Shown piece by piece: positions 14,688-58,385 of a stretch of 64,000 bases of DNA (the stretch's first letter is position 1; each line of letters begins with the position of its first letter). A model generated the notes under the pieces. It saw only the letters and a program-made list of their open reading frames with translations, did no database searches and was not told the origin of the DNA. The DNA lies in the NCBI RefSeq assembly GCF_006715045.1, contig NZ_VFML01000002.1, forward strand, positions 744,001 through 808,000, given 5' to 3'. Position numbers and translations under genes: made by a program. Source of the stretch: Amycolatopsis cihanbeyliensis. GTDB lineage: Bacteria; Actinomycetota; Actinomycetes; Mycobacteriales; Pseudonocardiaceae.

Positions 14688-15320
14688 ATGACCACGGACT
14701 CAGCACCGAGATGGCGACGGCTGGAACCTGACGAGCGCCGGGAGCAGATCTTCGCCTGCGCCGCCGAGCTCTTCGGCGAGCGACCGTACGCCGAAGTGTC
14801 CACATCGGACATCGCGGCGCGGGCCGGTGTCGCCAGGGGCCTGATCAACCACTACTTCGGCACCAAGCGCGAGCTGTACCTCGCGGTCATCCGGCGGGCG
14901 ATGACCGTACCGCACTTCGCGGTCGAGTTGCTGCCGGAGGGATCGCTGGAGAAGCGGACGCATGCCGCGGTGGACTGGTTCCTGAACATGGTGACCAAGC
15001 AGGGAAAGATGTGGCTGGCGGCCATCGCGCCGGAGGGCATCGGCAGGGACGCCGAGGTGGAGCAGATCCTCGCCGAGGCCGACCGGGAGTCCGCGGACCG
15101 GGTACTCGAAGCCGTCGGGATCGCGCCGGACAACAAGCACTGGGACGAGCTGAACGCGCTCATCCGGGCCTACGGCGGCATGGTGAAGGCCGCGGGCCGG
15201 GAGTGGCTGGTGCGCGGTGCGCTGAACCGGGACCAGGTGCACGCCCTGCTGAGCAAGTCCCTGCACACCCTCGTCGCCGAGGTCTTCCCTGCCGTACAGA
15301 ACGAAACGACTCCCCCCTAG
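14688..15320 (+). CDS. TetR-family regulator next to MMPL exporter
   Basis: 210 residues. The HTH region is EVSTSDIAARAGVARGLINHYFGTKRELYLAVIRR. The rest is a helical ligand domain with IRAYGGMVKAAGREWLV. It ends 75 bases before the MMPL transporter on the same strand, and an inverted repeat lies in that gap. It probably represses the exporter and perhaps itself. Confidence 0.88.
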   Translation: MTTDSAPRWRRLEPDERREQIFACAAELFGERPYAEVSTSDIAARAGVARGLINHYFGTKRELYLAVIRRAMTVPHFAVELLPEGSLEKRTHAAVDWFLNMVTKQGKMWLAAIAPEGIGRDAEVEQILAEADRESADRVLEAVGIAPDNKHWDELNALIRAYGGMVKAAGREWLVRGALNRDQVHALLSKSLHTLVAEVFPAVQNETTPP

Positions 15321-15395: not shown

Positions 15396-17537
15396 ATGGG
15401 TGTGTCGCGGTGGCTGTTGCCTGCCCTACTGGTGCTGCTGTGGCTGCTGCTCGGCGGCGCGAGTAGCCCGTTCCTCGGCAAGCTGAGCGAGGTCCAGAGC
15501 AACGACCCTGGTTCCTTCCTCCCGGCGACCGCCGAGTCGACCGAGGTGTCCGACCTGCAGGAACAGTTCACGGACAGCAGGCTGATGCCGGCCGTGGTGG
15601 TCTTCGAGCGGCCGTCCGGCCTCACCCCGGCCGACACCGAGGCGGTGCGGGTCAAGGCCGCCGAGTTCGCCCGGTCTCCGGGCCTGGTGGGTGAGACCTC
15701 ATCGCCGATCCCGGCCGAGGACGGCGCCGCGGTTCAGCTGGTGCTGCCACTGTCCGGCGAGGACCCGTACCAGGCCAGCGAGCGTGTCAAGGACATCCGC
15801 GCCGACCTCGAGCGGGGGCTGCCGGACGGCCTGCGTGCTTTCGTCACCGGGCCCGGCGGCTACAACGCCGACTTCGCCGAGGTCTTCGGGCATATCGACG
15901 GGATGCTGCTGCTGGTGACCGCCTGCGCGGTCGCACTGATCCTGATCATGGTCTACCGCAGCCCGCTACTGCCGATCATCGTGCTGATCTCGGCCGGACT
16001 CGCGCTGTGCACCTCCTCGGCCATCATCTACCTGCTCGCCGAGCGGGACCTGCTCATCCTGAACGGTCAGACCCAGGGCATCCTGCTCATCCTGGTGTTC
16101 GGTGCGGCGACCGACTACGCGCTGCTGCTGGTGGCCCGTTACCGCGAGGAACTGATGCGTCAACCACGCGTGCTGGACGCGATGCGCACGGCCTGGCGAT
16201 CCTCCTTCGAGCCGATCCTCGCCTCCGGCGGCACGGTGATCCTCGGCATGCTGTGCATGCTGGTCAGCGAGCTGACCTCGAACCGGAGCCTCGGCCCGGT
16301 GGTGTCGATCGGCATCGCGGGCGCGCTGCTGGCCTCGCTCACCTACCTGCCGGCGGCCCTGCTGCTGGTCGGCCGGTCCGCGTTCTGGCCGCAGGACGCC
16401 GTACCGCGCAAGCACCGGAAGGTCACCCACGGCATCTTCGACCGGATCGCCGAGCTGGTGCGCAAGCGCTCCCGGTGGACCTGGGTGGTCACCACCGTCG
16501 TCCTGCTGGCCGGGGTGGCCTTCGTGCCCTCGCTCCAGGCCAGCGGCACCACCCAGCAGGCGCTCTTCCTCGAGGAGGTCGAGGCCGTCACCGGGCAGGA
16601 CGTGCTGACCGCGCACTTCCCCGGCGGCACCGGGAGCCCCGCCGTCATCATGGCCACCGAGCAGTCCGCGGGGCAGGTGCTGGACGCCGCGACCGCCGTC
16701 GACGGCGTGGCCGAAGCGGTGCCGACCCCGGCCGAGCCGGGCAACCCCGCGGCCGGGCCGAAGACCGTGGACGGCATGGTCGAGATCAACGCGACCCTGC
16801 GCGACCCCGCCGACTCGACGGCCGCCGAGCGGACCCTGCGCGAGCTGCGCGAGACCCTGCACGCCCTCCCCGGCGCGCGGGCGAAGGTGGGCGGGCAGAC
16901 CGCGCAGCAGGTGGACATGCTCGCGGCGGCGACGCACGACCGCAACGCGATCATCCCGATCGTGCTCGTGGTGATCTTCGCCGTACTGGCGCTGCTGCTG
17001 CGATCCCTGCTGGTCCCGCTGCTGCTGATGGGCACCGTGGTGCTGTCCTTCGCCGCCACCCTCGGCGTCGGCGCGCTGGTGTTCAACGATCTGCTGAACT
17101 TCCCCGGCGCCGACCCGGCCATCCCGCTGTACGCCTTCGTGTTCCTGGTGGCGCTGGGCATCGACTACAACATCTTCCTGATGACCAGGGCAAGGGAGGA
17201 GACCGCGCGGCTGGGCACCGAGCGTGGCACGCTCCACGCGCTGAAGGTGACCGGCGGGGTGATCACCTCGGCCGGGGTGGTGCTGGCCGCGACCTTCGCC
17301 GCCCTGGCGGTGATCCCGGTGTTGTTCCTGGCCCAGGTCGCCTTCCTGGTCGCCTTCGGTGTGCTGCTGGACACCTTCGTGGTGCGCTCGCTGCTGGTGC
17401 CGGCGCTCGCCGTGGACCTGGGGCGGGTTATCTGGTGGCCGAGCCGGCTGGCTCGGGCTCCTCGGGCTCCGGCCGGACGTCCGGTTCCTGAGCCGGACGC
17501 GGAAGCCACAACGCCGCTACCGCGCCTACGAGGGTGA
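15396..17537 (+). CDS. MMPL/RND-family membrane transporter
   Basis: 713 residues from ATG 15396, with GGGAGGAC just upstream. It has two copies of the RND half: a periplasmic-side loop (about 35-165), then helices with TACAVALILIMVYRSPLLPI and FGAATDYALLLVARYREEL, the second loop, and helices with LGIDYNIFLMTRAREETA. These transporters use the proton gradient to export lipids or drugs. The preceding TetR and the operator suggest inducible efflux. The last 110 bases overlap the end of the convergent MFS gene. Confidence 0.92.
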   Translation: MGVSRWLLPALLVLLWLLLGGASSPFLGKLSEVQSNDPGSFLPATAESTEVSDLQEQFTDSRLMPAVVVFERPSGLTPADTEAVRVKAAEFARSPGLVGETSSPIPAEDGAAVQLVLPLSGEDPYQASERVKDIRADLERGLPDGLRAFVTGPGGYNADFAEVFGHIDGMLLLVTACAVALILIMVYRSPLLPIIVLISAGLALCTSSAIIYLLAERDLLILNGQTQGILLILVFGAATDYALLLVARYREELMRQPRVLDAMRTAWRSSFEPILASGGTVILGMLCMLVSELTSNRSLGPVVSIGIAGALLASLTYLPAALLLVGRSAFWPQDAVPRKHRKVTHGIFDRIAELVRKRSRWTWVVTTVVLLAGVAFVPSLQASGTTQQALFLEEVEAVTGQDVLTAHFPGGTGSPAVIMATEQSAGQVLDAATAVDGVAEAVPTPAEPGNPAAGPKTVDGMVEINATLRDPADSTAAERTLRELRETLHALPGARAKVGGQTAQQVDMLAAATHDRNAIIPIVLVVIFAVLALLLRSLLVPLLLMGTVVLSFAATLGVGALVFNDLLNFPGADPAIPLYAFVFLVALGIDYNIFLMTRAREETARLGTERGTLHALKVTGGVITSAGVVLAATFAALAVIPVLFLAQVAFLVAFGVLLDTFVVRSLLVPALAVDLGRVIWWPSRLARAPRAPAGRPVPEPDAEATTPLPRLRG

Positions 17538-18891
17538 CCCCGGCGAGGAGCACCATCGCGACTCCCATGGCGTCGGTGAAGCCGAGCCGAGCCACGGCCT
17601 GCACGGCGTGCCCCAGCGACCCCTCCACCCCGTCCAGCACCGCGGGCACGGTGCCCTGCGCCACCGCGTCGGTGTCGCGCAGCACCGCGTCGGCCACCGG
17701 CTCCGGCAGCCCGGCCTGCTCGATCCGCACCGGAATCGTGCGTAGCACCTGCCAGGACATCATCGTGCCCACCGCCGCGATGCCAAGGACCCCGCCGATC
17801 TGGGTCGCCATCTGCTGCAACGCCGAGGCGCTGCCGCTGGACTCCTCCGGGCTGGCGCCGAGGATCGCCTCGGTCGCGGCGATCACGCACAGGCCGGTGC
17901 CGAAGCCGACCAGCGCACCGGGCAGCAGCAGATCGACGAAACCGGACGTCGTGCCGAGCCCGGCGAGGCTGAACAGGCCGGCCGCGACGAGCAACAGGCC
18001 CGCGGACACCGGCCAGCGTGGGCCGAACCGCTGCGCGAGCAGTCCGCCGAGCGGCGCGGACAGCACCACGACGCAGGTGGGTGGCAGCATCCAGGCGCCG
18101 GCCTGAATCGGCGGGAGGCCACGCGCGTTCTGCAGGTACAGGGTGAGCAGGAAGAGCAGGCCGAACACGCCGAAGGAACTGAAGCCGACCAGCGCCGCGC
18201 CCAGGGTGACGGCGCGCCTGCGCAGCAGGCCACGCAGCGCGCCCGGAACCCCCTTCGGGGCCCCCTTCGACTCCACCACGGCCCAAAAAGTGAGTCCGAT
18301 CACAACGGCGGCGACCGGGACGTTCAGCAGGAAGACGGCTTCCCAGCTGAAGCCCTGCACGATCACGCCGCCGATCACCGGACCCAGCCCGATGGCCAGC
18401 GCGTTCACCCCGCCCCACACGCCGAGCGGCAGACCGAGCTTCCCGGGCGGGAAGGCGTTGCGCAGCAGGGCGAGCGCCGCCGGCTGCAACAGCGCGCCTG
18501 CCAAACCCTGCAGCACCCGGAACAGCACCAGCGCGGTGACCGTACCGGACAGCGCGATCCCGAGCGACGCGAGACCGAAGAGCAGCACGCCGAGCACGAA
18601 GGTCCGGCGCCGCCCGATCCGATCGGCAAGCCGGCCCGCGGGCAGCAGCGCGATGGCGAGCGCCACAAGATAGGCGTTCGCGATCAGTTCGAGTTCACCG
18701 AGGGTAGCGCCCACCTCGGCGGAGATGTAGGGGGCCGCGATCGTGGTCGCGGTTCCGTCCAAGCCGACCAGCACGCCGCCGAGGACCGTGGCGACCAGGG
18801 TCAGCCATGGCCTGCCGCGCGAGGCCCGTTGAAGAACCCCCTGCTCAGGGCCATTTTCCGTGGTGGTCCTGCCGAGCTCGCCGTCTGCCAC
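17428..18891 (-). CDS. MFS drug exporter, 14-helix DHA2 type
   Basis: 487 residues from GTG 18891, with GGAAGG upstream. It has VLGGVLVGLDGTATTIAAPYI in helix 1, AGRLADRIGRRRTFV as motif A, and LFRVLQGLAGALLQPAALALL as motif C region, with about 14 hydrophobic segments. DHA2 proteins exchange drugs for protons. The polar tail VRPEPEEPEPAGSATR is coded within the overlap with the MMPL gene on the other strand. Confidence 0.92.
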   Translation of the reverse strand: MADGELGRTTTENGPEQGVLQRASRGRPWLTLVATVLGGVLVGLDGTATTIAAPYISAEVGATLGELELIANAYLVALAIALLPAGRLADRIGRRRTFVLGVLLFGLASLGIALSGTVTALVLFRVLQGLAGALLQPAALALLRNAFPPGKLGLPLGVWGGVNALAIGLGPVIGGVIVQGFSWEAVFLLNVPVAAVVIGLTFWAVVESKGAPKGVPGALRGLLRRRAVTLGAALVGFSSFGVFGLLFLLTLYLQNARGLPPIQAGAWMLPPTCVVVLSAPLGGLLAQRFGPRWPVSAGLLLVAAGLFSLAGLGTTSGFVDLLLPGALVGFGTGLCVIAATEAILGASPEESSGSASALQQMATQIGGVLGIAAVGTMMSWQVLRTIPVRIEQAGLPEPVADAVLRDTDAVAQGTVPAVLDGVEGSLGHAVQAVARLGFTDAMGVAMVLLAGVTLVGAVAALWLPRPAQEPDVRPEPEEPEPAGSATR

Positions 18892-19293: not shown

Positions 19294-21084
19294 ATGCATA
19301 TGTCGTTGGCTGAGCACCCGCCTTCGGACGGCGTGGTCCCCGAGCTGCGACCACTTACGACTTATTTGTTCGATCGTGCGGGCAGTGTTGACCCCGCGTT
19401 CACACAACTCGACTACTCCACCGAGCGCACCGGCGTCGAGCACACCATCGGCTGGAACGAGCTCGCCACGAGAGTGCGCGCCACCGCCGCGGCACTGGCC
19501 GACGTCACCACTCGCGGCCAGCGGGTGGCCGTATTGGCCAAACAGGACCTGAACTACGTGGTCGGCTTCCTCGGCGCACTGCACGCCGGTACCATTGCCG
19601 TCCCGCTGTTCGCGCCCGAGGCCAGCCAGCACGGCGACCGGCTGGTGAACGCGCTCGCCGACTGCACACCCGAGGTCTGGCTGACCGGACACGGCACTGT
19701 GGACACGCTGCGTGGGCTCGCCGACGAGGCCCCGGTGCCGATGCCGAAGCAGATCATCGCGGTGGACGCCATCGACGAGAAGATCGGGGACGGTTTCCAG
19801 GCGCCTTCGCTGGACCTCGCCGAGCCCGCGTACCTCCAGTACACCTCGGGTTCGACCCGCACGCCGGCCGGCGCGGTGATCACCCACCGCGCGGTGGTCA
19901 GCAACACCTGGCAGGGCGGAACGGCATTCCACGTCGACGAGTCCTGGACCTGCGCGGGATGGATCCCGTTCTTCCACGACATGGGGCTGATTCAGCTACT
20001 GACCATTCCGGTACTGTTCGGTGCTCACTCCGTGTTCATGTCCCCGTTCGACTTCATCATGCGGCCGGCGCGTTGGCTGCGGCAGATGTCGGGCTACCCG
20101 AATGTCTTCGCGGCCGCCCCCAACTTCGCGTTCGAGTACGCCGCACGAAAGGTGAAGGATGCCGACCGGCAAGACCTGGACCTTTCCGGTGTACGTGCGG
20201 TGATCAATGGCAGCGAGCCGGTACGGGCCACGACAATCGCCGGTTTCCAGGAGGCATTCGGGCCCTACGGTTTTCCCGCCTCGGCGCACCGGCCATCCTA
20301 CGGCCTTGCCGAGGCCACGGTGTTCGTCACCAACACCCGGGAGGAGGGCCCCACGGTCACCTCTTTCGACCGTGCCGCGCTCGCCGGCGACCGCGCGGTG
20401 CCGGTGCCGCCGGGGACCGAGGGCGCGCTGGAACTGGTGGCCGCGGGCAAACCGCATGCCCAGCTCGTGCGGATCGTCGACCCGCACACGCGCACGGTGC
20501 GAGCGGACGGTGCCGTCGGTGAGGTCTGGATCCACGGCCCGAACGTGGCCGACGGCTACTGGCGGCAGTCGGGCGGTGAGATCGCCCAGCGCAGCGAGGA
20601 CACCTTCGGCGGGTCCCTCGCCGACCCGCCGGAAGGCACCCCGGGCGCGCGCTGGCTGTGCACGGGGGATCTCGGGGTGATCCACGACGGCCTGCTCTAC
20701 ATCACCGGCCGGATCAAGGACCTGATCATCATCGACGGCAAGAACCACTACCCGCAGGACATCGAGGTCACCGTGCAGGAGGCGCACCCGGCGATCCGCC
20801 GGGACCACGTCGCGGCCTTCGCGGTCACCACTGAGTCGGGCGAGGAGGGCGCCGCGGTGGTGGCGGAGTACCACGCCCGCAACGGCGAGGACGAGCTCGA
20901 TCCCGCCGAGGTGACCAAGGCCGTACGCAGGGCGGTTTCCGCCAAGCACGACGTCAAGCTACGCGGGTTCGAGCTGGTCCGGCCGGGGAGTGTGCTGCGC
21001 ACCTCGAGCGGCAAGATCGCGCGCGCCGCCACCAGGGAGAAGTTCTGGTCCGACAGTAGCGGTACCGGCACTGGGGGTGCGTAA
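19294..21084 (+). CDS. fatty acyl-AMP ligase, FadD32-like
   Basis: 596 residues. The P-loop is YTSGSTRTPAGAVITHRAV (about 183-201), the form seen in FAALs such as FadD32. GWIPFFHDMGLIQ (about 222) and the C-terminal GRIKDLIIIDGKNHYPQDIE are also family-typical. FAALs make acyl-AMP and pass the chain to a carrier domain instead of CoA. The PKS that starts five bases after this stop has an N-terminal carrier domain with the matching GLSSRD motif, so I infer direct loading in the order FAAL, then ACP1. The start may be ATG 19294 or 19300; TAGGTG fits the second slightly better. Confidence 0.92.
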   Translation: MHMSLAEHPPSDGVVPELRPLTTYLFDRAGSVDPAFTQLDYSTERTGVEHTIGWNELATRVRATAAALADVTTRGQRVAVLAKQDLNYVVGFLGALHAGTIAVPLFAPEASQHGDRLVNALADCTPEVWLTGHGTVDTLRGLADEAPVPMPKQIIAVDAIDEKIGDGFQAPSLDLAEPAYLQYTSGSTRTPAGAVITHRAVVSNTWQGGTAFHVDESWTCAGWIPFFHDMGLIQLLTIPVLFGAHSVFMSPFDFIMRPARWLRQMSGYPNVFAAAPNFAFEYAARKVKDADRQDLDLSGVRAVINGSEPVRATTIAGFQEAFGPYGFPASAHRPSYGLAEATVFVTNTREEGPTVTSFDRAALAGDRAVPVPPGTEGALELVAAGKPHAQLVRIVDPHTRTVRADGAVGEVWIHGPNVADGYWRQSGGEIAQRSEDTFGGSLADPPEGTPGARWLCTGDLGVIHDGLLYITGRIKDLIIIDGKNHYPQDIEVTVQEAHPAIRRDHVAAFAVTTESGEEGAAVVAEYHARNGEDELDPAEVTKAVRRAVSAKHDVKLRGFELVRPGSVLRTSSGKIARAATREKFWSDSSGTGTGGA

Positions 21085-21089
21085 CACCG

Positions 21090-24000
21090 ATGAGCGAGCC
21101 GGACATCAGCACCGACGAGCTGCGGCGCTGGCTCGTCGAGCACGTCGCCGAGGCGGCCGAGGTCGACGAGGTCGAGATCGACATCCACCTGCCGCTGGAC
21201 GAGTACGGGCTCTCCTCCCGGGATGCCGTCGCGCTGTCGGGTGCGCTGGAGGAGCTGCTCGACCGCACGCTCCCGACCACCCTGTTGTGGGACCACCCCA
21301 CCATCGACCGGCTCGCCATCGCACTCACCGGAACGGGGGAGCCGAGCCTGCCGCCGCCGGTGCTGGCCCAGCCGCGACCCGAGGTCGATGCCACGCACGC
21401 CACGGACCCCGAGGACGCGATCGCGGTCATCGGGCTCGGCTGCCGGCTGCCCGGCGGGGTACACGGCCCGGAACAGTTCTGGACCTTGCTCACCGAGGGC
21501 AAGGACGCGATCACCGAGGTGCCACCGGATCGCTGGGCCGATTTCGGGGACCCGCCGGAAGATGTCACTCGAAAGGGTGGATTCCTGGAGGACATCGCCG
21601 GCTTCGACGCGACCTTCTTCGGCATCAGCCCCCGAGAGGCCGCCCGGATGGACCCGCAGCAGCGGATACTGCTCGAGGTCGGCTGGGAGGCGCTGGAGCA
21701 CGCGGGCATCGCGCCGGGCTCGCTGCGCGGCAGTGACACCGGTGTGTTCGTCGGAATCAGCGGCACCGAGTACGGCGCCCAGTCCCTCGCCGACCTTTCC
21801 GGGGTGGACGCCTGGGTGGGCACCGGCGCGGCGCTGAGCATCGCCGCGAACCGGCTGTCCTACGTGCTGGACCTGCGCGGTCCCAGCATGGCCGTGGACA
21901 CCGCATGCTCCTCCTCGCTGACCTCGATGCACCTCGCCGTGCAGAGCCTGCGCTCGGGAGAGAGTGGGCTCGCCCTTGTCGGTGGCGCCAACCTGCTGCT
22001 CGGCCCAGGGATCACCGCGAACTTCGACCAGATGGGGATCAGCTCGGCGGACGGCAGGTGCAAGCCCTTCTCCGCCGACGCGGACGGCATCTGCCGGGCC
22101 GAGGGCGCGGGCATGGTCGTGCTCAAGCGGCTGTCCGAGGCGCGCGCCGACGGCGACCGGGTGCTGGCCGTGGTGCGCGGGTGTGCCGCCAACTCCGACG
22201 GCCGCTCGAACGGGCTCACCGCGCCGAATCCCGAAGCCCAGCAGGCCTTGCTGCGCGCCGCCTACCGGCAGGCCGGGGTGGCGCCCGCCGAGGTGGACTA
22301 CGTCGAGGCACACGGCACCGGAACACTGCTCGGCGACCCCATCGAGGCCCGTGCGCTGGGTGCCGTGCTCGGCGCAGACCGGCGGGCCGACCGGCCGCTG
22401 CTGATCGGCTCGGTGAAGAGCAACCTCGGGCACCTCGAGGCGGCGGCCGGGATCATCGGCCTGATGAAGGTGGTGCTCGCCCTGCACCACCGGCGAATCC
22501 CGGCCAGCGTCAACTACTCGGCGCCGAACCCGCATATCGAGTTCGCCGAGCTCGGGTTGGACGTGGCCGATGCCGCCGCCCCGTGGCCAACGGCGACCGG
22601 AGCGCTCGCCGGGGTGTCCGGCTTCGGTTTCGGCGGTTCGAACGCGCACGTGGTGCTACAGCAGGTCCAGGAGGAGCCACGATCGCAGACCGCCCCCGCT
22701 CCGGCGCGGCGGCGCTTCCTGCTCGGAGCACCCGACGGGGAACGCCTCGCGACCAAGGCGCGGGAGCTCGCGGGCTGGCTCGCCGGCCCGGAAGGATCCG
22801 CCGCGCGGCCCGCGGATCTGCGGCACACCCTCGCGCGCAGGCTGGACGGCCAGTACCGGGCCGCGGTGGTGGCCGGCGCGGGCAGCGAGTTGATCGAAGG
22901 GCTGACCGCGCTCGCCGAAGGCGTGGACTCCCCCGCCGCCGTGGCCGGGGTGCGGCCGAGCACGGGCCGCGGGCCGGTGTTCGTGTTCTCCGGGCACGGT
23001 TCCCAGTGGGCCGGCATGGGTCGCCGGCTGCTCGCCGAGGAGCCGGTGTTCGCCGAGGCCATCGACCGGCTCGACCCGCTGATCGAGGCGGCGTCGGGCT
23101 ACTCGCTGCGGGCGGACCTGCGCGCCGGGGTCGAGGCCGGCACGATGGACCACGTCCAGCCGCTGGTGTTCGGCATCCAGGTCGCGCTGGCCGAGCTGTG
23201 GCGTTCCTACGGTGTTCGGCCGGCCGCGGTGATCGGCCACTCCTTCGGCGAGGTCTCCGCCGCGGTGGTCGCGGGTGCGATCTCCGAGGCCGACGGCGCG
23301 AGGATCGTGGCCCTGCGTTCCCGGTTGCTCGCCTCACTGGCGGGCGACGGTGCGATGGCCCTGCTCGAGGTGGGCGCCGAGGAGGCGGCCGAGCTGGTCT
23401 CCGGACTGTCTGATGTGGACGTCGCCGTGCTGTCCGCGCCGAACCAGACGGTCGTGGCCGGGCGCGCCGCCACCGTTCGGCGCCTGGTATCCGATGTGGA
23501 GTCACGCGGACTGCTTGGCAAGTTGGTCAAGCTGGATGTCGCCGCGCACTCCCCGATCGTCGATTCGGTCACCGGGACCCTCGCCGAGGGCCTCACCGGC
23601 CTGGTGCCGGGACGAGCGGAGGTCGACTTCTACAGCACCGCGTTACCGGACCCGCGCGAGATGCCCTCCTTCGGCCCGAGCTACTGGGCGGCCAACCTGC
23701 GCCGGCCGGTCCGGTTCGCCGGTGCGGTGGCCGCCGCGGTCGCCGACGGGTACGGCACCTTCGTCGAGGTGTCGCCGCATCCGGTGCTGCGGCACGCGCT
23801 CGCCGACAACGCCGCCCCGCTGGTGTTGTCCACCTTGCGGAACTCGCCGGACGAGACCACGCATTTCCACCGGCAGCTCGCCGAGCTGGAACTGACCGGG
23901 CAACACACGGCCACGGAAGCGGGCGGGGGCCTGGTCGACCTGCCCCGCACCTCGTGGCGACACCGGCCGTACTGGCTGCCGCCGGCGACGGGCGCGGCGC

Positions 24001-27000
24001 CGTCCGGTCAACACCCGCTGCTCGGCCCGCATATCGAGTTGCCGGAGGACACCCGGCACGTCTGGCGTGCGGACCTCGGCACCGCGGCGCAACCCTGGTT
24101 GTCCGAGCACGAGTTGGACGGCAGGCCGGTGTTGCCGGGGGCAACCTACGTCGAGCTGGCCTGCGCCGCCGCGCGCACGGTGTTCGACGTCGCCGTGGAA
24201 CGGGTCACCGTGCGGGGGCTGACCATGCACCAGCCGCTCTCCCTCGCCGAGCACACCCCGGTCACCACCACGCTGGCCCCGGCGGGCACCGATCGTGGCG
24301 CGGTCTCCGTGCACACCAAGGCGGCCGACGGCACCTGGCAGTTGCACGCGACGGCCGAGGTGAGTATTGCCGAGGGCACCACGGTGGACGGGTACATCTC
24401 CGATGTGGACGATCACGAGTTCAGCTCGTTCCCTGTTGCCGAGCTCTACCGGCGAATGGGCACGATCGGCCTGCACTACGGGCCGGCGCTCACCGGGCTA
24501 CGCGCGGTACGGGTGAGCCGCAAAGCCTCCGACGGCAGGGTTCGTGCCGTCGCCGAGATCGAGCTGCCGGAGTCGGCGAGCAGGCACCCCGCCCTGCGCC
24601 TGCACCCTGCGCTGCTGGACGCGTGCCTGCAGGCCTTCGCGGGCGCGTTGGTCGACCCGCGGGCCGACACGGTGGACGCGGTCTACATGCCGATGGAGTT
24701 CGGCAGCGTCCGGGCCTTCGGCGACCTCCGCCGGGGCGCGCTGGTGCACGTTTCGGTGACCGCGCCGGCCGAGCGGGCGGCGGGCCTGCTCGGGGAGTTG
24801 CACCTGGTGGACGCCGAGGGCAGGGTGCTGCTCGAGGCCGACGAGGTGTTCCTGCGCCGGATCGGCCGCACCGAGCTCTCCGCGCCGCTGACCGACCGGC
24901 TGCTGGAGACGAGCTGGCGGCCGGCCGCGCTGTCCGGTGTGGACTCAAAGCCGGAGAAGCTCCTGCTGCTGCCCGGTTCCGGCACCGAACCGCTCGCCGA
25001 AGCGGTCACCGCCCGCGCCGGGTTCGAGGTCCGGCAGGCCGAGCGCGTCGATCCGGACGAGCGGGCCGATTCGGTGGCGTTCCTGCTGCCGCGTGGCGGC
25101 GAGGACGGGCTCGGCGCGCTGGCCGACACCGAACGCGTCGTACTGGAGATCTCCGAGGCCGTCCGCATCCTCGCCGAGGGCGGTACGCGCCCGGCACGGC
25201 TGTGGCTGGTCACCTCCGGCGCGGCCGCCGTCACCGGCGCCGAGGCAGGACGGCCGGCACAGGCCGCGCTACGCGGGCTGGTCCGGGTGCTCACCTACGA
25301 GCACCCCGAGCTGCGGGCGACCCTGGTCGACCTGGACCCCGAGGCCACGGCGGCGGACAACGCGCGCACGCTGCTGGCCGAGCTCGGCGGCGGGATCGAG
25401 GACGAGGTGGCCTGGCGCGCCGGGGAACGGCACACGCTCCGGCTGGATCGGGTTCCGTCCGTGTCGCCGGTGCGGGATGCGCCCGTGGCCGCTGCGGACG
25501 GCGGTTACGTGCTCACCGGCGGCCTCGGCGGCCTCGGGTTGCTGCTCGCCCACTGGCTCGCCGGGCACGGCGCGGGCAGGGTCGTGCTGAACGGGCGCTC
25601 CGAGCCGGGCGCGGCGGCGCGCGAGGAGATCGAGCGGATCCGCGAGCTCGGCACCGAGGTCGCGGTGGTACGCGGGGATATCGCCGAGCCGGGCGTCGCC
25701 GAACGCCTGCTCGAGGCCGCGAGTAGGAACGGCAGGCGGCCACGCGGGGTGATCCATGCCGCCGCGGTCTTCGACGACCGCACCACGAGCAGGCTCGACC
25801 CGGACACGCTGCACCGCTCGTGGCAGGCCAAGGCCTACGGCGCGTGGCGACTGCACGAGGCCAGCCGGGAGCTGGACCTGGACTGGTGGATCGGGTTCTC
25901 CTCGGCCGCCGCCCTGCACGGGCTGCCTGGCCAGCCCGCCTACGCCACCGCGAATGCTTACCTGGACGCGCTCGCCGCGCTGCGCAGGGCTGAAGGGCTG
26001 CCGGGCTGCACGGTGTCCTGGGGGACCTGGGCCGAGGTCGGCGCGGCCGCGGGGCTGGAGGTCCCGTGGCTGCACGCGATCGACCCGGCCGAAGGGCTCG
26101 CCGCGCTGGAGGCGGTGCTGGCGGCCGAGCGGGTCGGTACCGGCGCCCTGCGGCTGAACACGCCGAAGCTGGTCGAGGCCTTCCCGCACCTGGTGGAGTC
26201 GCCGTTCTTCGGCGAGTTGCTCGCGGGCGAGGCCCAGGCCTCCCCGGACGGGGACTCCGCATCCGCTGCCGACTGGGCCGGCCTGGCCACCCTGCGAACG
26301 CTCGAACCGGCCACGGCGCGGGCGATGGCCTCCACCCAGCTACGGGCCAGGATCGCCTCGGTGCTCGGTTTCCAGCCGGACAAACTGGACCCGGCCACGC
26401 CACTGGCCGCGCTCGGCGTGGACTCGCTGCTGGCCGTGCGCATCCGCAACGCCGTGCAGCACGACTTCGAGCTGGCGCTGCCGGTGTCACTGATGCTGCG
26501 TGGGGCGTGCGCGGCCGAGGTCGAGGAATGGCTGTTCGGTGAGCTGGGCATCGAGGACGCGGCCGCCCCCGCTCGGACGGCGGAGCCGGCACTCGTCCCG
26601 CCGCGAGACGCCGCGGAGCGGTTGGTCGCCAGCGCGTGGGGGGAGGTGCTCGGCATCGACGTCGGCGTGACACAGGACTTCTACGGCATCGGCGGCAACC
26701 GGCAGAAGGCCGAGGAGGTCACCGCGCTGCTGGTCGAGCGAAGCGGGCGGGAGCTGACCATCTCGGAGCTGTTCGAGCACCCGACGGTCGAGCGGATCGC
26801 CCAGCATCTGCGCGAGGACGAACCCGCGGGCGGCTCGCCGGTGCGGGTGCTGCGCGAGCATGGCGACCGGACGCCACTGTTCCTGTTCCACCCGGGCGGC
26901 GGGGACACGGCCGTGTATCACCAGCTCGTACACCTGCTGGACACCGAGATGCCGGTATACGGTTTCGACCGGATCGACGGAGTCGCCAGCGTCGAGGATC

Positions 27001-27674
27001 GGGTGACGCACTACCTGCCCGAGCTGCGGGCGATCCAGCCCCACGGGCCGTACCGCGTCGCCGGGTGGTCGTTCGGTGGGTTCCTCGCCTACGAGATGGC
27101 GCAGCAGTTGCGCCGGGCAGGCGAGGAGGTCGAGTTGCTCGCGATGATCGACTCGATCCTGCCGTTGCCCAACGACACCGGGCTGACCGAGGTGGAACTG
27201 CTGGAGAAGCGGTTCGAGCGGTTCGAGGAGTTCCTCGAGACGAGCTACGGCCGGCGGGTGTCGTTGCCGTACGAGCGGCTGGCCCGGCTCGACGATGAGG
27301 GCCAGGTACAGCTGCTGATCGACACCATGCTGGCCGAGGGCATCGTGAACAGTGCGGTGAGTGACGCGATCCTGCACCACCAGCGCACCTCCTTCCTGGA
27401 CGCGCGCTCGCTCGAACACTATGTACCGGCGCGTTACCCGGGCAGGGTGACTTTCTTCAGTGCCGCGGACCTGGTGCCGGGAGGATTGCGCGACCAGCGG
27501 TTCGACCGCACCGATCCGGCCCGCGGCTGGGACGCCGTATGCCCGGACATCGAGGTGATCAGCGTTCCGGGACACCACCTCTCGCTGCTCGATCCGCCCA
27601 ATGTGGACCTGATCGGGAAGCACCTGGACCACCTGCTGGCCAAGGTCGAGCAGGCCGTGCGGAGTGCCGGATGA
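21090..27674 (+). CDS. type I polyketide synthase: ACP-KS-AT-DH-KR-ACP-(inactive carrier)-TE, Pks13-like ends
   Basis: 2194 residues. ACP1 has EYGLSSRDAVAL with Ser43. KS runs from about 108 to 530, with Cys273 in DTACSSS, then EAHGTGT and SNLGHLE. AT runs from about 628 to 910, with GHGSQWAGMG, GHSFGE (Ser718) and VAAHS in the specificity position. DH has His1007 in HELDGRPVLP and Asp1177 in LLDACLQ. KR has the NADPH loop TGGLGGLG (about 1475) and Tyr1618 in YATAN. ACP2 carries Ser1779 in LGVDSLLAVR. A third carrier-like domain has GGNRQKA, with Arg1871 where the Ser should be. TE has GWSFGG (Ser1994) and His in GHHLSLLD. There is no ER. The ACP-KS-AT...ACP-TE frame recalls mycolate synthase Pks13, with DH and KR added. 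It probably condenses a FAAL-loaded acyl chain once and releases a reduced, perhaps 2-unsaturated, product. Confidence 0.93.
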   Translation: MSEPDISTDELRRWLVEHVAEAAEVDEVEIDIHLPLDEYGLSSRDAVALSGALEELLDRTLPTTLLWDHPTIDRLAIALTGTGEPSLPPPVLAQPRPEVDATHATDPEDAIAVIGLGCRLPGGVHGPEQFWTLLTEGKDAITEVPPDRWADFGDPPEDVTRKGGFLEDIAGFDATFFGISPREAARMDPQQRILLEVGWEALEHAGIAPGSLRGSDTGVFVGISGTEYGAQSLADLSGVDAWVGTGAALSIAANRLSYVLDLRGPSMAVDTACSSSLTSMHLAVQSLRSGESGLALVGGANLLLGPGITANFDQMGISSADGRCKPFSADADGICRAEGAGMVVLKRLSEARADGDRVLAVVRGCAANSDGRSNGLTAPNPEAQQALLRAAYRQAGVAPAEVDYVEAHGTGTLLGDPIEARALGAVLGADRRADRPLLIGSVKSNLGHLEAAAGIIGLMKVVLALHHRRIPASVNYSAPNPHIEFAELGLDVADAAAPWPTATGALAGVSGFGFGGSNAHVVLQQVQEEPRSQTAPAPARRRFLLGAPDGERLATKARELAGWLAGPEGSAARPADLRHTLARRLDGQYRAAVVAGAGSELIEGLTALAEGVDSPAAVAGVRPSTGRGPVFVFSGHGSQWAGMGRRLLAEEPVFAEAIDRLDPLIEAASGYSLRADLRAGVEAGTMDHVQPLVFGIQVALAELWRSYGVRPAAVIGHSFGEVSAAVVAGAISEADGARIVALRSRLLASLAGDGAMALLEVGAEEAAELVSGLSDVDVAVLSAPNQTVVAGRAATVRRLVSDVESRGLLGKLVKLDVAAHSPIVDSVTGTLAEGLTGLVPGRAEVDFYSTALPDPREMPSFGPSYWAANLRRPVRFAGAVAAAVADGYGTFVEVSPHPVLRHALADNAAPLVLSTLRNSPDETTHFHRQLAELELTGQHTATEAGGGLVDLPRTSWRHRPYWLPPATGAAPSGQHPLLGPHIELPEDTRHVWRADLGTAAQPWLSEHELDGRPVLPGATYVELACAAARTVFDVAVERVTVRGLTMHQPLSLAEHTPVTTTLAPAGTDRGAVSVHTKAADGTWQLHATAEVSIAEGTTVDGYISDVDDHEFSSFPVAELYRRMGTIGLHYGPALTGLRAVRVSRKASDGRVRAVAEIELPESASRHPALRLHPALLDACLQAFAGALVDPRADTVDAVYMPMEFGSVRAFGDLRRGALVHVSVTAPAERAAGLLGELHLVDAEGRVLLEADEVFLRRIGRTELSAPLTDRLLETSWRPAALSGVDSKPEKLLLLPGSGTEPLAEAVTARAGFEVRQAERVDPDERADSVAFLLPRGGEDGLGALADTERVVLEISEAVRILAEGGTRPARLWLVTSGAAAVTGAEAGRPAQAALRGLVRVLTYEHPELRATLVDLDPEATAADNARTLLAELGGGIEDEVAWRAGERHTLRLDRVPSVSPVRDAPVAAADGGYVLTGGLGGLGLLLAHWLAGHGAGRVVLNGRSEPGAAAREEIERIRELGTEVAVVRGDIAEPGVAERLLEAASRNGRRPRGVIHAAAVFDDRTTSRLDPDTLHRSWQAKAYGAWRLHEASRELDLDWWIGFSSAAALHGLPGQPAYATANAYLDALAALRRAEGLPGCTVSWGTWAEVGAAAGLEVPWLHAIDPAEGLAALEAVLAAERVGTGALRLNTPKLVEAFPHLVESPFFGELLAGEAQASPDGDSASAADWAGLATLRTLEPATARAMASTQLRARIASVLGFQPDKLDPATPLAALGVDSLLAVRIRNAVQHDFELALPVSLMLRGACAAEVEEWLFGELGIEDAAAPARTAEPALVPPRDAAERLVASAWGEVLGIDVGVTQDFYGIGGNRQKAEEVTALLVERSGRELTISELFEHPTVERIAQHLREDEPAGGSPVRVLREHGDRTPLFLFHPGGGDTAVYHQLVHLLDTEMPVYGFDRIDGVASVEDRVTHYLPELRAIQPHGPYRVAGWSFGGFLAYEMAQQLRRAGEEVELLAMIDSILPLPNDTGLTEVELLEKRFERFEEFLETSYGRRVSLPYERLARLDDEGQVQLLIDTMLAEGIVNSAVSDAILHHQRTSFLDARSLEHYVPARYPGRVTFFSAADLVPGGLRDQRFDRTDPARGWDAVCPDIEVISVPGHHLSLLDPPNVDLIGKHLDHLLAKVEQAVRSAG

Positions 27675-28546
27675 GCGAACTGACCGTGCTCGAGGACGGT
27701 ACGTCGTCGGCAGGCAAGGTCCGCGAGCTACGGTTGTTCTCTCCCGCCGTGGGCAGGGAGGTCGGAGTCACCCTGCTCACCCCGCCGGGTTGGGAGCCGG
27801 GCGGGCATCGCGGCCATCCGGTGCTGTACCTGCTGCACGGTTCCTCGGACGACCACCACAGCCTGGTACGGCACACCGAGGTCGCGCGGCTGGCCGAGCG
27901 CGGCAACATGCTGGTGGTGATCCCGGAGGCGGGCAGGCTGGGGTTCTACACCGACTGGCAGGTACCCGACCGCCTCGGCACCGTGCCCCGCTGGGAAACG
28001 TTCCACCTCGGCGAGTTGCTGCCGCTGCTGGAGCGCGAGTACGGCGCCGGTGAGGTACGGATGGCCGCGGGACTGTCCATGGGCGGGTACGGCGCGCTGC
28101 GGTACGGAATGCGGCATCCCGGCATGTTCCGCGCCGTGGCCTCGTTGAGCGGATTGATGCACCTGACCCGCCGCGGGATGGCAGCGCTGCTGGGCCTGCT
28201 GTCCCTGCGCGAGGGCATGCGCCCCGGCCGGGTCTGGGGCCCACGACGCCGGTGTCCCGAAGCCTGGGCCGCCAACGATCCGTTCGTGCGTGCGGACGCG
28301 TTGGCCTCGACCCCGGTGTACCTGGCGGCCGGCGACGGCAGCAGGCTGCCAGGTGACCAGTTCGTCGCCGGGATGGGCCTGGTTGAGCGGTATTCCCGGG
28401 CGATGACCGAGGATCTGGCCGAACGCCTGCATGCCATGGGCACGCGGGTAACCACTCGGTACACCACCGGCATCCACTTCTGGCCCACCTGGCGACGCAT
28501 GATCGAGGACTTCTGGCCGTACGCCCAGGACGTACTGCGCGACTGA
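27671..28546 (+). CDS. esterase with antigen-85/esterase-D fold, cytoplasmic
   Basis: 291 residues. Its ATG overlaps the PKS stop (ATGA). It has HPVLYLLHGSSDDHHS, the nucleophile elbow AAGLSMGGYGALRYG (Ser about 138), and a late His in TTGIHFWPTWRRM. Putative esterases of this family include the mycolyltransferases FbpA-C and trehalose-ester hydrolases. Unlike those, no signal peptide or lipobox is seen. The coupling to the PKS suggests that it transfers or hydrolyses the PKS product inside the cell, for example onto a sugar. This is inference. Confidence 0.88.
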   Translation: MSELTVLEDGTSSAGKVRELRLFSPAVGREVGVTLLTPPGWEPGGHRGHPVLYLLHGSSDDHHSLVRHTEVARLAERGNMLVVIPEAGRLGFYTDWQVPDRLGTVPRWETFHLGELLPLLEREYGAGEVRMAAGLSMGGYGALRYGMRHPGMFRAVASLSGLMHLTRRGMAALLGLLSLREGMRPGRVWGPRRRCPEAWAANDPFVRADALASTPVYLAAGDGSRLPGDQFVAGMGLVERYSRAMTEDLAERLHAMGTRVTTRYTTGIHFWPTWRRMIEDFWPYAQDVLRD

Positions 28547-30225: not shown

Positions 30226-33084
30226 CTAGCCTGACCGCGTCCCCGCGTCAGCCAGTTTTCGCTCCACTCGCTCGACATCGGCGGTACGCCGCTGTTCCCT
30301 GAACAACGTGACGGCCCGGCGCCAGTACTCGACGGCCACACCGGTCGCACCGAAGGCATGGTGGGTGTCCCCGAGGCTGGCCAAGGTCCTTGCCTCCTCG
30401 TAGGTGTGCCGCAGCTCCCGGAACAGCGCCAGCGCCTCGCCGTAGTGACGCACGGCCTGGTCGTACTCGCCGAGATGCCGCACGATGTACCCGAGGCTGT
30501 CCAGGGTCTGCGCCTCCGCCCTGCGATGCCCGTGCCTGCGGCACAACGCGAGCCCTTCCTCGCAGTGGACGCGCGCGGTCTCGAAGTTGCCGAGCTTGGC
30601 CTCGAACCAGCCGATGGCGCCGCGCATATCCGCCGCCCACACGTGGTCACCGACCTCCTGGAACAGGCGCAACGAGTGATGCGACTCCGCCAGCGCCCGC
30701 TGGTTGTCGCCCGCGAACTCCAACACCACCGCCAGTGCCTGGTGGGCATGCGCCTTGGCACCGAGGTCGCCTGCTTCAGTGAACAACTCGAGGGCGAGCT
30801 CGAGGTGTTCGAGCGCCTGCGCCTGCTCCCCCACCCGGGCGTAGGTGTGGCCGATCTCGCGGTGTGCCCAGCCCCGGGCGAAGGGTTCGCCGAGCCGGTC
30901 CGCGGCGGCCACCCCGGCAAGCCAGGATTCGAGGCTCTCCTGCGGGTTACCACGCCGCCGGTGGAAGCTACCGAGCACCCAGGCCAGCAACCACACCTGG
31001 GCGTCCATGCCCTGTGCGATGGCCGTCTCCTGCGCGGCCAGCAGGCATTCGTGCTCGGTGTCGAACCACGCCGCGGCCGCCGCGGTGCTCGCCGGAACCT
31101 CCGGCAGCGCCCCCTCGGCAGGCGGGCCGGGGGCGATCAGCGGTCGCTGCGGGTAGAGCAACCGGTCCGCCGCGTGCGCGGTGTGCAGGTAGAAGTCCAC
31201 CAGCCTGCGCGCCGCGGTCCGCAACTCCTTCGGCGCACCGGACTCCGTGGCCTGCTCCGCCGCGTAGAGCCGCAGCAGGTCGTGCATCCGGTACCGGCCG
31301 GGGACGTGCTGCTGAACCAGGTGCGCCGCCTCCAGCTCGCGCAGCAGTACGCGGGCCCTTTCCGGCGGCAACGCGGCCAGACTGGCGGCCGCCCGCAGGC
31401 TGATGTCCGGCCCCTGCACCAGGCCGAGCAGGCGGAACATCCCGGCGGCCGCGGTGCCGAGCGCACGGCAGGACCAGGAGAACACCGCACGCAGGTTCGC
31501 GGTCAGCTCCCCGGCGTCGAAAGCGTCCAACCTGGCGGATGCGCCCCGCAGTTCCTCGGCGAGCACGGCGAGCGGGAAGTCCGGGTGGGCGGCGGCACGC
31601 GCCACCACGATGCTGACCGCGAGTGGCAACCCGGCGCACCAGCGAACCAGATCGGCGGCCACCGCGGGTTCGCTCAGCACCCGCTCGACGCCGAGCTGCC
31701 CGGCCAGCAGCTCGCGCGCCTCCCCCGCGCTCAACACGTCCAGATTGACCAGCCGCCCGCCACGCAACTGCAAGCCGGGCAGTCGTCGGCGGCTGGTGAC
31801 CAGCGCGGTGCAGGTCTCGCTGCCCGGCAACAACGGCTCGACCTGCGTGGCGTCCCTGGCGTTGTCGAGCACGACGAGCAATCGCTTGCCCGCGACCATG
31901 CTGCGGTAGAGCGCCGCCCGCCCGTCCAGATCGGCCGGGATCGCGGCCGCGTCGGCCCCGAGTGCGTCCAGGAAGCCGCGCAGGACCGCCGAGGGCGAAC
32001 TCGGCTCGCACGAGGGGTCGAAGCCACGCAGGTTGACATGCAACTGCCCGTCCGGGAACCGGTCCAGGTTCCGCTGCGCCCAGTGCACCGCGAGCGCGGT
32101 CTTGCCGATACCGCCGGTACCGGCGATCACCACGATCGGCGTGGAGCCGGGCTCCCCGGCGAGCGGCAGCGCGTCGAGCTGCTTCAGCTCGTCGGCACGA
32201 CCGACGAAGCCGCCCACGTCCGCGGGTAGCTGGCGGGGCATCGGGAAACCGAGGTGCGCCGGCCGCTCGGCGCCCTCGGCGAGCAGCTCGGGGTCCTCCC
32301 GCAGAATCCGCTGGTGCAGCTCACCGAGCGTGGCGCCGGGTTCGGTGCCCAGCTCGGCGCGCAACCGCCGGGCGAGCGCGGTGAAGCAGTCCAGCGCCTC
32401 GCTGGATCGGCCCACCCGGTACAACGCCAGCATGAGCCAGCGCACCAACGGCTCGGCCAGCGGGTGCTCGGCCACCACGTTGGCCAGCTCGGCCACCACC
32501 TCGGCATGCCGTCCCGCCGCCAGTTCGGCTTCGAAGAGGTCACCGAGCAGGCCGAGCCGTTCGCGTTCCAGCCCGTCCCGCACCCGCTCGGCCCAGTCCC
32601 CACCGACCCCGGCCAGCGCCGGGCCCCGCCACAACGCGGCGGCGTCCCGCAGCAGGCGGGCGGCACGCCCGGGCTCACCGGCGGCGAGTGCCGCGCGGCC
32701 CTGCCCGGCGACCTCACGCATGAGGCAGACGTCCACCTGCTCGGGCGGTACCTCGAGCACGTAGCCGCCACCATGCTTGCCGAGCGTGACCACCCCCTCG
32801 CGGCCGAGCTCCCGCAGCAGCCTGCGCAGCCGCGCGATGTAGCCGTAGAGCGTGTCGCGAGCGGTGGTGGGTGGCTCCTCGCCCCACACCCGGTCGATCA
32901 GCGACTCGAGCGGCACCGGCTTACCCGGGCTGAGCGCGAGCGCCGCCAGCACACAACACTGCTTGGCGGGGCCGGCGGTCGCCGTGCCACCGGCGGCACC
33001 ATCATGGGCGTCCAGTCCGACACTGCCCAGCAGGCGCACCACCAGGTCGCCACCAGCGGTTCGGTCCGTGACATCCACCTCCAT
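30226..33084 (-). CDS. AfsR/SARP-type regulator: DNA-binding-BTAD, NB-ARC, TPR
   Basis: 952 residues. Residues about 15-105 form an OmpR-like winged helix (LIDRVWGEEPPTTARDTLYG and RLRRLL). The BTAD helical domain follows to about 265. The NB-ARC ATPase has IAGTGGIGKTALAV (Walker A, about 320) and LLVVLDNARD (Walker B). From about 640 to the end there are TPR-like helices (GWAHREIGHTYARVGEQAQALEHL and repeats). Such proteins switch on secondary metabolism by binding 11-bp-spaced direct repeats, with ATP and phosphorylation or partner sensing as control. An exact 11-bp tandem repeat lies 34 bases upstream of its start. Confidence 0.95.
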   Translation of the reverse strand: MEVDVTDRTAGGDLVVRLLGSVGLDAHDGAAGGTATAGPAKQCCVLAALALSPGKPVPLESLIDRVWGEEPPTTARDTLYGYIARLRRLLRELGREGVVTLGKHGGGYVLEVPPEQVDVCLMREVAGQGRAALAAGEPGRAARLLRDAAALWRGPALAGVGGDWAERVRDGLERERLGLLGDLFEAELAAGRHAEVVAELANVVAEHPLAEPLVRWLMLALYRVGRSSEALDCFTALARRLRAELGTEPGATLGELHQRILREDPELLAEGAERPAHLGFPMPRQLPADVGGFVGRADELKQLDALPLAGEPGSTPIVVIAGTGGIGKTALAVHWAQRNLDRFPDGQLHVNLRGFDPSCEPSSPSAVLRGFLDALGADAAAIPADLDGRAALYRSMVAGKRLLVVLDNARDATQVEPLLPGSETCTALVTSRRRLPGLQLRGGRLVNLDVLSAGEARELLAGQLGVERVLSEPAVAADLVRWCAGLPLAVSIVVARAAAHPDFPLAVLAEELRGASARLDAFDAGELTANLRAVFSWSCRALGTAAAGMFRLLGLVQGPDISLRAAASLAALPPERARVLLRELEAAHLVQQHVPGRYRMHDLLRLYAAEQATESGAPKELRTAARRLVDFYLHTAHAADRLLYPQRPLIAPGPPAEGALPEVPASTAAAAAWFDTEHECLLAAQETAIAQGMDAQVWLLAWVLGSFHRRRGNPQESLESWLAGVAAADRLGEPFARGWAHREIGHTYARVGEQAQALEHLELALELFTEAGDLGAKAHAHQALAVVLEFAGDNQRALAESHHSLRLFQEVGDHVWAADMRGAIGWFEAKLGNFETARVHCEEGLALCRRHGHRRAEAQTLDSLGYIVRHLGEYDQAVRHYGEALALFRELRHTYEEARTLASLGDTHHAFGATGVAVEYWRRAVTLFREQRRTADVERVERKLADAGTRSG

Positions 33085-51200: not shown

Positions 51201-51236
51201 AGCTCAAGCCCCTCTCCGCGTGACCGGTGACCGAGA

Positions 51237-53905: not shown

Positions 53906-54044
53906 CGTCGCTTCTTTCGCGTGGTGGAGTAGCCAATCCGACACACTGTGCTTATCAGCCGAATGGGCCAGTAGCACTAGGCCGAATGCCCAAAATGTCC
54001 CGAATCGTAGTGTGCAAGCTCACAGCACTTGATCCGACACCGGG

Positions 54045-58346: not shown

Positions 58347-58385
58347 CTACTAGAGAGTAGATAGTGTCATCATCTAGGTGATGAC
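58347..58385. promoter_or_regulatory. two palindromes over the start of the acyl-CoA reductase gene
   Basis: The first is CTACT-AGAG-AGTAG (58347-58360). The second, GTCATCA-TCTAGG-TGATGAC (58366-58385), pairs at nine of ten positions and covers the start codon. TAGATA (58358-58363) between them could be the -10. A repressor bound here would block both transcription and ribosome access. No regulator gene is adjacent. Confidence 0.6.

Follow-up and report, generated by a model that had tools for sequence, protein, structure and literature searches.

The closest described systems to the one reported here are the FadD32-Pks13 loci of Mycobacterium, Nocardia, Rhodococcus and Corynebacterium, where a fatty acyl-AMP ligase (FAAL) is encoded beside a type I polyketide synthase (PKS) that uses a C24-26 carboxyacyl extender. 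This synthase, Pks13, has an N-terminal acyl carrier protein (ACP), a ketosynthase-acyltransferase (KS-AT) core and a C-terminal ACP, and a partner of the Ag85 fold is encoded nearby. Two further pieces of it are already in print: a cryptic ACP lacking its serine ahead of the thioesterase (TE), described in PMC9210659 and PMC9900942, and a dehydratase (DH)-like fold after the AT, termed DH* in PMC11649247. Here we describe a related locus in the soil actinomycete Amycolatopsis cihanbeyliensis, within a 64,000-nucleotide stretch (contig NZ_VFML01000002.1, positions 744,001 to 808,000; henceforth the window) of a 7.4-Mb genome in two contigs. The initial annotation of the window took the host group to lack mycolates, and a species description states this for the genus (PMC8930869); likewise, a perspective paper describes the Pseudonocardiales as having arabinogalactan and lacking mycolic acids (PMC6194230). 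We consider it probable that the locus is a five-gene cluster for the assembly and export of a lipid, whose PKS represents, in unreduced form, the type of synthase to which Pks13 belongs. As predicted from the sequence, the cluster consists of the following genes:

15396..17537, + strand: MmpL/RND-type lipid transporter (PF03176, 385 bits)
17428..18891, - strand: major facilitator superfamily (MFS) transporter (PF07690, 194 bits)
19294..21084, + strand: FadD32-like FAAL (PF00501 and PF23024)
21090..27674, + strand: type I PKS of 2194 residues with the order ACP1-KS-AT-DH-ketoreductase (KR)-ACP2-psiACP-TE (Pfam)
27671..28546, + strand: Ag85/mycoloyltransferase-fold esterase of 291 residues, without a signal peptide (PF00756)

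The last three of these (19294..28546) had been reported as an operon by the initial annotation, and their junctions are as it described: the TAA stop of the FAAL (596 residues) is separated by the five bases CACCG from the ATG of the PKS, whose stop overlaps the esterase start as ATGA. Because of this overlap the esterase most likely starts at 27671 rather than at 27539, the start of the longest open reading frame (ORF). All three ORFs show codon-position G+C of the coding type; the third-position value is lower (0.80) in the esterase ORF as listed, as would be expected if its first 44 codons lay outside the gene. A scan for sigma-70 promoters returned 0 sites.

The PKS, which shares 90% identity with a PKS from Amycolatopsis aidingensis, contains the following domains:

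21114..21320, + strand: ACP1, the loading carrier (residues 9-77; Ser43 in GLSSRDAV)
21414..22679, + strand: KS (residues 109-530; PF00109/PF02801; DTACSSS motif at 270)
22971..23801, + strand: AT (residues 628-904; PF00698; GHSFGE, VAAH signature)
24012..24935, + strand: DH (residues 975-1282; PF21089 and PF14765; His1007, Asp1177)
25482..26231, + strand: KR (residues 1465-1714; PF08659, 177.7 bits; Tyr1618)
26325..26534, + strand: ACP2, the extender carrier (residues 1746-1815; GVDSLL)
26586..26813, + strand: psiACP, a dead third carrier (residues 1833-1908; Arg1871 in place of Ser)
26865..27641, + strand: TE of the Pks13 type (residues 1926-2184; GWSFGG)

The Pks13-like motif GLSSRDAVA in the first carrier (residues 40-48), the complete DH and KR and the absence of an enoylreductase (ER) had all been recognized before and agree with the residues and with the Pfam matches, in which no ER appears other than the short-chain-dehydrogenase hit produced by the KR itself. 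What had been overlooked is the second C-terminal carrier, in which Arg1871 aligns against the GGDS of gramicidin-synthase carriers. To assess conservation we aligned 78 rows, namely the window protein, 76 relatives of 1300-2400 residues drawn from the best 120 of 7988 scored candidates, and a paralog from the same genome; among those 120, the relatives ranked P0004-P0019 include nine with an organism name, all of them Amycolatopsis. Across the alignment the serine of ACP1 is kept in all 78 rows and that of ACP2 in all 77 rows with a residue there, the KR tyrosine occurs in 70 of 71, and none of 77 has a serine in the carrier that immediately precedes the TE. The modelled DH (predicted local distance difference test score, pLDDT, 84.3) has a normal DH fold with the DHs of PpsC and of mycocerosic acid synthase (MAS)-like proteins as its best Foldseek matches, and 16 aligned DHs, one from the window and the others from 15 fetched loci, all have His1007 and at least 90% of them Asp1177. 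AT signatures of the HAFH type go with malonyl use and those of the YASH type with methylmalonyl use. The AT here reads VAAH, without the malonyl-type phenylalanine, where the Pks13 rows have GAGH or xASH, and its best match in the PDB, MAS, has VASH; on account of this signature an alpha-substituted extender is the likely substrate. MAS and PpsC also supply the best PDB matches of the KS-AT region, but Mas, as described in PMC9210659, is a KS-AT-DH-ER-KR-ACP protein, with an ER and with neither an N-terminal ACP nor a TE.

Comparison with 22 Pks13 proteins encoded at loci from mycolate genera revealed that the resemblance extends to both of their leftover pieces. The psiACP matched the same region of Pks13 with a probability of 98.2 (E 3.6e-14, 33% identity), and the Pks13 linker between AT and ACP2 matched the post-AT/DH region of the window PKS family (31 sequences; probability 98.7, E 1.7e-16) and gave no match to the family KR. 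With the post-AT linker removed, DH* scored 66.6 against the family DH (31 members; E 7.6e-10) versus 19.2 against 15 generic modular DHs and at most 20.8 against 30 column-shuffles; the same generic DHs scored 396 against the family DH. A generic DH was thus rejected as the nearest source of DH*, its score lying within the shuffle range. The sequence match covers the N-terminal half, a detail that differs from the published account, and the gap in the alignment removes the motif of the catalytic histidine. As for the TE, Pks13 accounts for the seven top PDB chains (170.6-185 bits), and a non-Pks13 chain follows at 84.5 bits. The likeness to FadD32-Pks13 proposed by the initial annotation reflects real homology: the sequence shows it for the psiACP, TE and DH, and shows as well the domains, the catalytic residues, the dead third carrier and the synteny. 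The PKS is not Pks13 itself, an identification that was rejected since the NCBIfam cut-off is missed and DH and KR are present, whereas Pks13 has DH* and no KR. Because DH* and the psiACP match the family and the best match of the TE is Pks13, we regard it as most likely that the ancestor of Pks13 was a synthase loaded by a FAAL and equipped with a functional DH, the type that is intact here, that this ancestor also had a KR, and that DH* and the psiACP of Pks13 are its remains.

The adjoining FAAL combines an AMP-binding domain with a DIP2-like C-terminal domain, and among PDB chains it scores highest against 5d6j (an entry named acyl-CoA synthase, 413 bits) and 5ey9 (FadD32, 412 bits); its nearest solved relatives are FAALs, the activity that we predict here. 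FadD32 forms a clade of its own in a FAAL tree, whose deepest forks are weak (58) and carry a long-branch warning, and we base no claim on it.

To delineate the unit we re-read 72 loci in six frames with purpose-built profiles. This set is not a random sample: 69 loci were retrieved by FAAL similarity and L122 with the Pks13 model, and the window and the paralogous locus (L009) complete it. Most FadD32-Pks13 loci were annotated apart from it, and L042 and L135 probably represent one record. Of the 72 loci, 42 contain the PKS, which in three of them is cut by the locus end after the KS or AT. An MmpL of at least 900 bits occurs in 21 of these 42 and in none of the 30 FAAL loci without the PKS, and all 21 also carry the MFS gene, the esterase (>400 bits) and the FAAL. 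The MFS gene is convergent with the MmpL gene, and their 3' ends overlap in nine of ten compared MmpL loci, L018 being the exception. The initial annotation overlooked the two transporters, which also belong to the unit. The FadD32-Pks13 loci annotated apart showed no MmpL scoring at least 150 bits. Loci with all five genes come from A. marina, A. palatopharyngis, A. kentuckyensis (with the PKS cut by the locus end), A. vancoresmycina, a Crossiella sp. and Kibdelosporangium banguiense. Five of 30 genomes of the genus are known to have the unit, and three more, read at the places of their FAALs (L033-L036), showed none there; of six further FAAL stretches from the genus, five have the five-gene unit and one (L137) the FAAL only. 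One genome (G206) carries the unit twice (L134, L136). The unit is patchy within the genus, and the PKS type is a family spread across Pseudonocardiaceae and other Actinomycetota rather than the oddity of one strain. In Solirubrobacteraceae (L067:10519-17013) and Patulibacter (L071:4143-9476), a PKS with a DH-type region lies beside a FAAL and an MFS gene; no KR was found in either protein, and a dehydratase without a ketoreductase is odd.

Within this family, a KS-AT tree of 76 rows, with four modular PKS rows as the outgroup and 10 rows of Pks13, places Pks13 inside the family in a part (SH-like approximate likelihood ratio test, SH-aLRT, 95, then 90) that also holds the paralog type L009, L121, P0116 and P0120, and the window clade (20 rows, 99) elsewhere. 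The TE tree is unrooted and does not place Pks13 as either sister or nested. By score, DH* is closest to the window-clade DH (66.0; 47-63 for size-matched sets of four), followed by the paralog set (39.9, four sequences), the GLTSR-clade DH (33.1; 20-30 size-matched) and a Solirubrobacterales-type set (25.1); the best single DHs are those of L019 (49.1), L026 (40.6), L121 (38.9) and L042 (38.0). Six window-clade rows forming one group (SH-aLRT 87) show a cut-down loop, retaining only the KR (P0030), only the DH (P0033, P0044), a DH remnant (P0054) or neither domain (P0058, P0061). As in DH*, only the N-terminal part of the DH survives in P0055 and in P0054, which bears the name Amycolatopsis sp.; the segment with the histidine is gone, and DH* scores 60.0 against this remnant. 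On the KS-AT tree the losses in this group are an event separate from that in Pks13.

These observations suggest a scheme for which we infer the substrates, the number of rounds, the release partner, export and any location in the envelope. The FAAL would adenylate a fatty acid and load it onto ACP1, which would hand the acyl chain to the KS. ACP2 would receive an alpha-substituted carboxyacyl extender from the AT, and the KS would condense the two chains, after which the KR would reduce the 3-oxo group and the DH could remove water. The Pks13-type TE would then release the chain, to either an acceptor or water; the cytosolic Ag85-fold esterase might trim or transfer it, and the MmpL and/or MFS proteins would export the product, predicted to be an alpha-substituted acyl lipid that is beta-reduced or 2-unsaturated. 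The earlier proposal of a mycolate-like line making a different lipid is upheld in part, by the homology with Pks13 and the presence of DH and KR; loading, condensation and the type of release would resemble the mycolate line, and export and attachment need not.

Several observations weigh against this interpretation. The PKS scores 1318 bits with the NCBIfam model for Pks13 (NF040607), below the cut-off of 2100, which nothing across the host genome exceeds, and the FAAL scores 550.6 with that for FadD32 (NF038339), below the cut-off of 975. In topology tests whose groups were named after the tree had been seen, a position of Pks13 outside the family was not rejected by the approximately unbiased test (p 0.105), and the union of Pks13 with the window clade was weakly rejected on KS-AT (p 0.033). 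The KS-AT region thereby disfavours the very clade whose DH is most like DH*, a conflict that could arise from slow change of the DH in the window clade, from recombination or from long-branch error. The single DHs of L069, L070, L074 and L122, from the Pks13 side of that tree, score 13.7-22.8 against DH*, no better than shuffles. The Pks13 rows have a long stem branch and, for the most part, an odd composition. The histidine and aspartate of the DH are both intact in just 37 of 68 rows of DH length (His1007 in 51, Asp1177 in 41), so that dehydration is dispensable in the family. The best PDB matches of the MmpL are MmpL5 and MmpL4 (~180-189 bits, MmpL5 about 189) as against 73 bits for MmpL3. 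No signal peptide was detected in the esterase by a hydropathy scan, which is not a trained predictor (best 12-residue mean -0.39). Finally, a FAAL of at least 75% identity occurs in four of 30 genomes of the genus, host included, which suits an accessory product.

The last points bear on where the product ends up. An identification of the transporter as MmpL3, the exporter of trehalose monomycolate, was rejected (76.6 bits with the NCBIfam MmpL3 model, cut-off 1400), the protein being nearer MmpL4/5. The esterase has the Ag85 fold suggested for it at the outset, with a nucleophilic serine in GLSMGG and a model (pLDDT 91.7) whose 28 best Foldseek matches are all Ag85 or mycoloyltransferases. 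For want of a signal peptide we do not place it as a cell-wall mycolyltransferase, and a secreted Ag85 enzyme was rejected on the same scan. The hydropathy value does not exceed 1.28 in 13 of 14 other syntenic esterases (in L030, with an over-long gene call, it is 1.59), unlike in the paralog of L009 (2.56) and the mycoloyltransferase-like genes at FadD32-Pks13 loci (2.07-2.67); in three Streptomyces-type loci (L089, L092, L103) it is 1.64-2.05 together with an RR resembling that of twin-arginine translocation (Tat) signals. Given an MmpL that is not MmpL3 and an esterase without a signal peptide, an envelope lipid of the mycolate kind is no more than our inference, and a secreted specialized metabolite fits nearly as well. 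It is quite possible, indeed, that the cluster makes a secreted lipid or lipid-like polyketide (a signal, surfactant or antibiotic), with the MmpL and MFS proteins as efflux pumps, the esterase as a maturation or self-protection hydrolase, and no envelope role. The kinship of the MmpL with the siderophore exporters MmpL4/5, the patchy distribution, the cytosolic esterase, the richness of the host genome in PKS genes and an AfsR/SARP-type regulator at 30226-33084 are consistent with this, but the Pks13-type TE, the psiACP and the Ag85-fold partner point to an acyl-lipid synthase, and the regulator gene is without a relative in the other compared loci.

The remaining alternatives concern the chemistry and the history of the PKS. 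It is doubtful that the DH is silent in the full pathway, so that the product would be a mycolate-like 2-substituted 3-hydroxy acid made without a CmrA-type reductase. The firmer conservation of the KR tyrosine than of the DH pair, and the replacement of the DH aspartate by glutamate in 12 of 25 rows (P0002 and P0004-P0027), argue for such silence; the window PKS itself has both residues, invariant or nearly so in the 16 aligned DHs, and a normal DH fold. Whereas Pks13 performs a single round, repeated use of the KS-AT-DH-KR core on the starter loaded by the FAAL would give a polyene or poly-branched acid; we think this unlikely. A complete DH-KR pair without an ER, and the resemblance of AT and DH to those of MAS, iterative according to PMC9210659, would be in line with iteration, but a Pks13-type TE and psiACP suit a single condensation, as do near relatives that lost DH and KR and kept the rest. 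Decidedly unlikely, in our judgement, is the fullest form of the preferred reading, in which the cluster is living kin to the machinery that gave rise to mycolic acid synthesis and makes a mycolate-like envelope lipid (2-branched, 3-hydroxy or 2-unsaturated) on trehalose or arabinogalactan in a host group having arabinogalactan but no mycolates, and Pks13 arose by loss of the catalytic DH segment and the KR, a step apparently repeated in P0054 and P0055. That DH* and the psiACP of Pks13 resemble the family by convergence or recombination instead of descent is very unlikely: the different nearest clades given by KS-AT and DH* are what a mosaic origin would leave, but generic DHs and shuffles fail to match DH*, the psiACPs share both their position and the loss of the serine, and the TE agrees with descent.

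Related clusters share part of the five-gene unit. The paralogous cluster in the same genome (L009:6997-19063, C1:5523996-5536062, within C1:5517000-5536999) shares the MFS gene, here beside the paralogous PKS, a PKS with DH-KR and psiACP, the Ag85-fold esterase and the FAAL. It differs in that its PKS is 44-50% identical to that of the window with the DH aspartate changed to alanine, its esterase has a signal peptide, a desaturase and an FAD/Fe-S oxidoreductase lie upstream, and no MmpL was found in the 20 kb read. Streptomyces-type loci (L078, L089, L092, L099, L103) share the FAAL, a PKS with an N-terminal ACP and a related TE, and the Ag85-fold esterase, but their PKS is of the form ACP-KS-AT-ACP-TE, with no DH or KR found, no MmpL found nearby and no psiACP in four of five (L092 alone gives a hit at the 15-bit level), and the esterases scanned (L089, L092, L103) have a Tat-like signal. 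Elsewhere in the host genome, a FAAL followed by a 1077-residue KS-AT-KR fragment of a PKS, shortly after an Mce-type operon (L010:5785-10604, C1:5838784-5843603), looks like a decaying relative. A third FAAL (L032:12409-14398, C1:3222408-3224397; 55% identical) is accompanied by a small carrier-like ORF and not by this PKS; its neighbourhood is common to L031 and L036, and one TAA was counted inside the matched FAAL stretch.

Around the cluster, one more gene might be connected with it, although this is less sure:

14688..15320, + strand: TetR-family regulator, possibly of the unit (PF00440)

It matches FasR weakly (48 bits) and has a relative beside the MmpL in only one of the loci compared (L017). 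The AfsR-like SARP (Streptomyces antibiotic regulatory protein) gene mentioned above lies downstream on the - strand. The 36 different window ORFs scanned with Pfam include no carboxylase, so that, as noted earlier, an AccD4-type enzyme is absent from the vicinity, unlike at FadD32-Pks13 loci. Farther away are a fusion protein of two domains, a reductase of the male-sterility type and a short-chain dehydrogenase (58378-60375, + strand), and a row of genes for a DMFA2_C-domain protein (836 residues), a GMC oxidoreductase and a 321-residue protein without a Pfam match (48690-53977, - strand).

Searches of an open-access library, which did not extend to most subscription papers and preprints, yielded no report of such a cluster in Pseudonocardiaceae, of a Pks13 relative bearing DH and KR, or of a link to the origin of Pks13. 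The locus is a new variant of the FAAL-coupled Pks13-type synthase, with a chemistry predicted as above, and most likely offers a view of how Pks13 arose. The lineage is represented here by an intact synthase that has a full DH and a KR in addition to the dead carrier shared with Pks13. Together with its FAAL, Ag85-fold and MmpL neighbours, and in a group free of mycolates, it provides a concrete ancestor-like system that helps explain the two leftover pieces of Pks13, DH* and psiACP, and that bears on whether a KR and DH within one chain stand in for the later reductase, on the role of the dead carrier and on the lipid of these cells.

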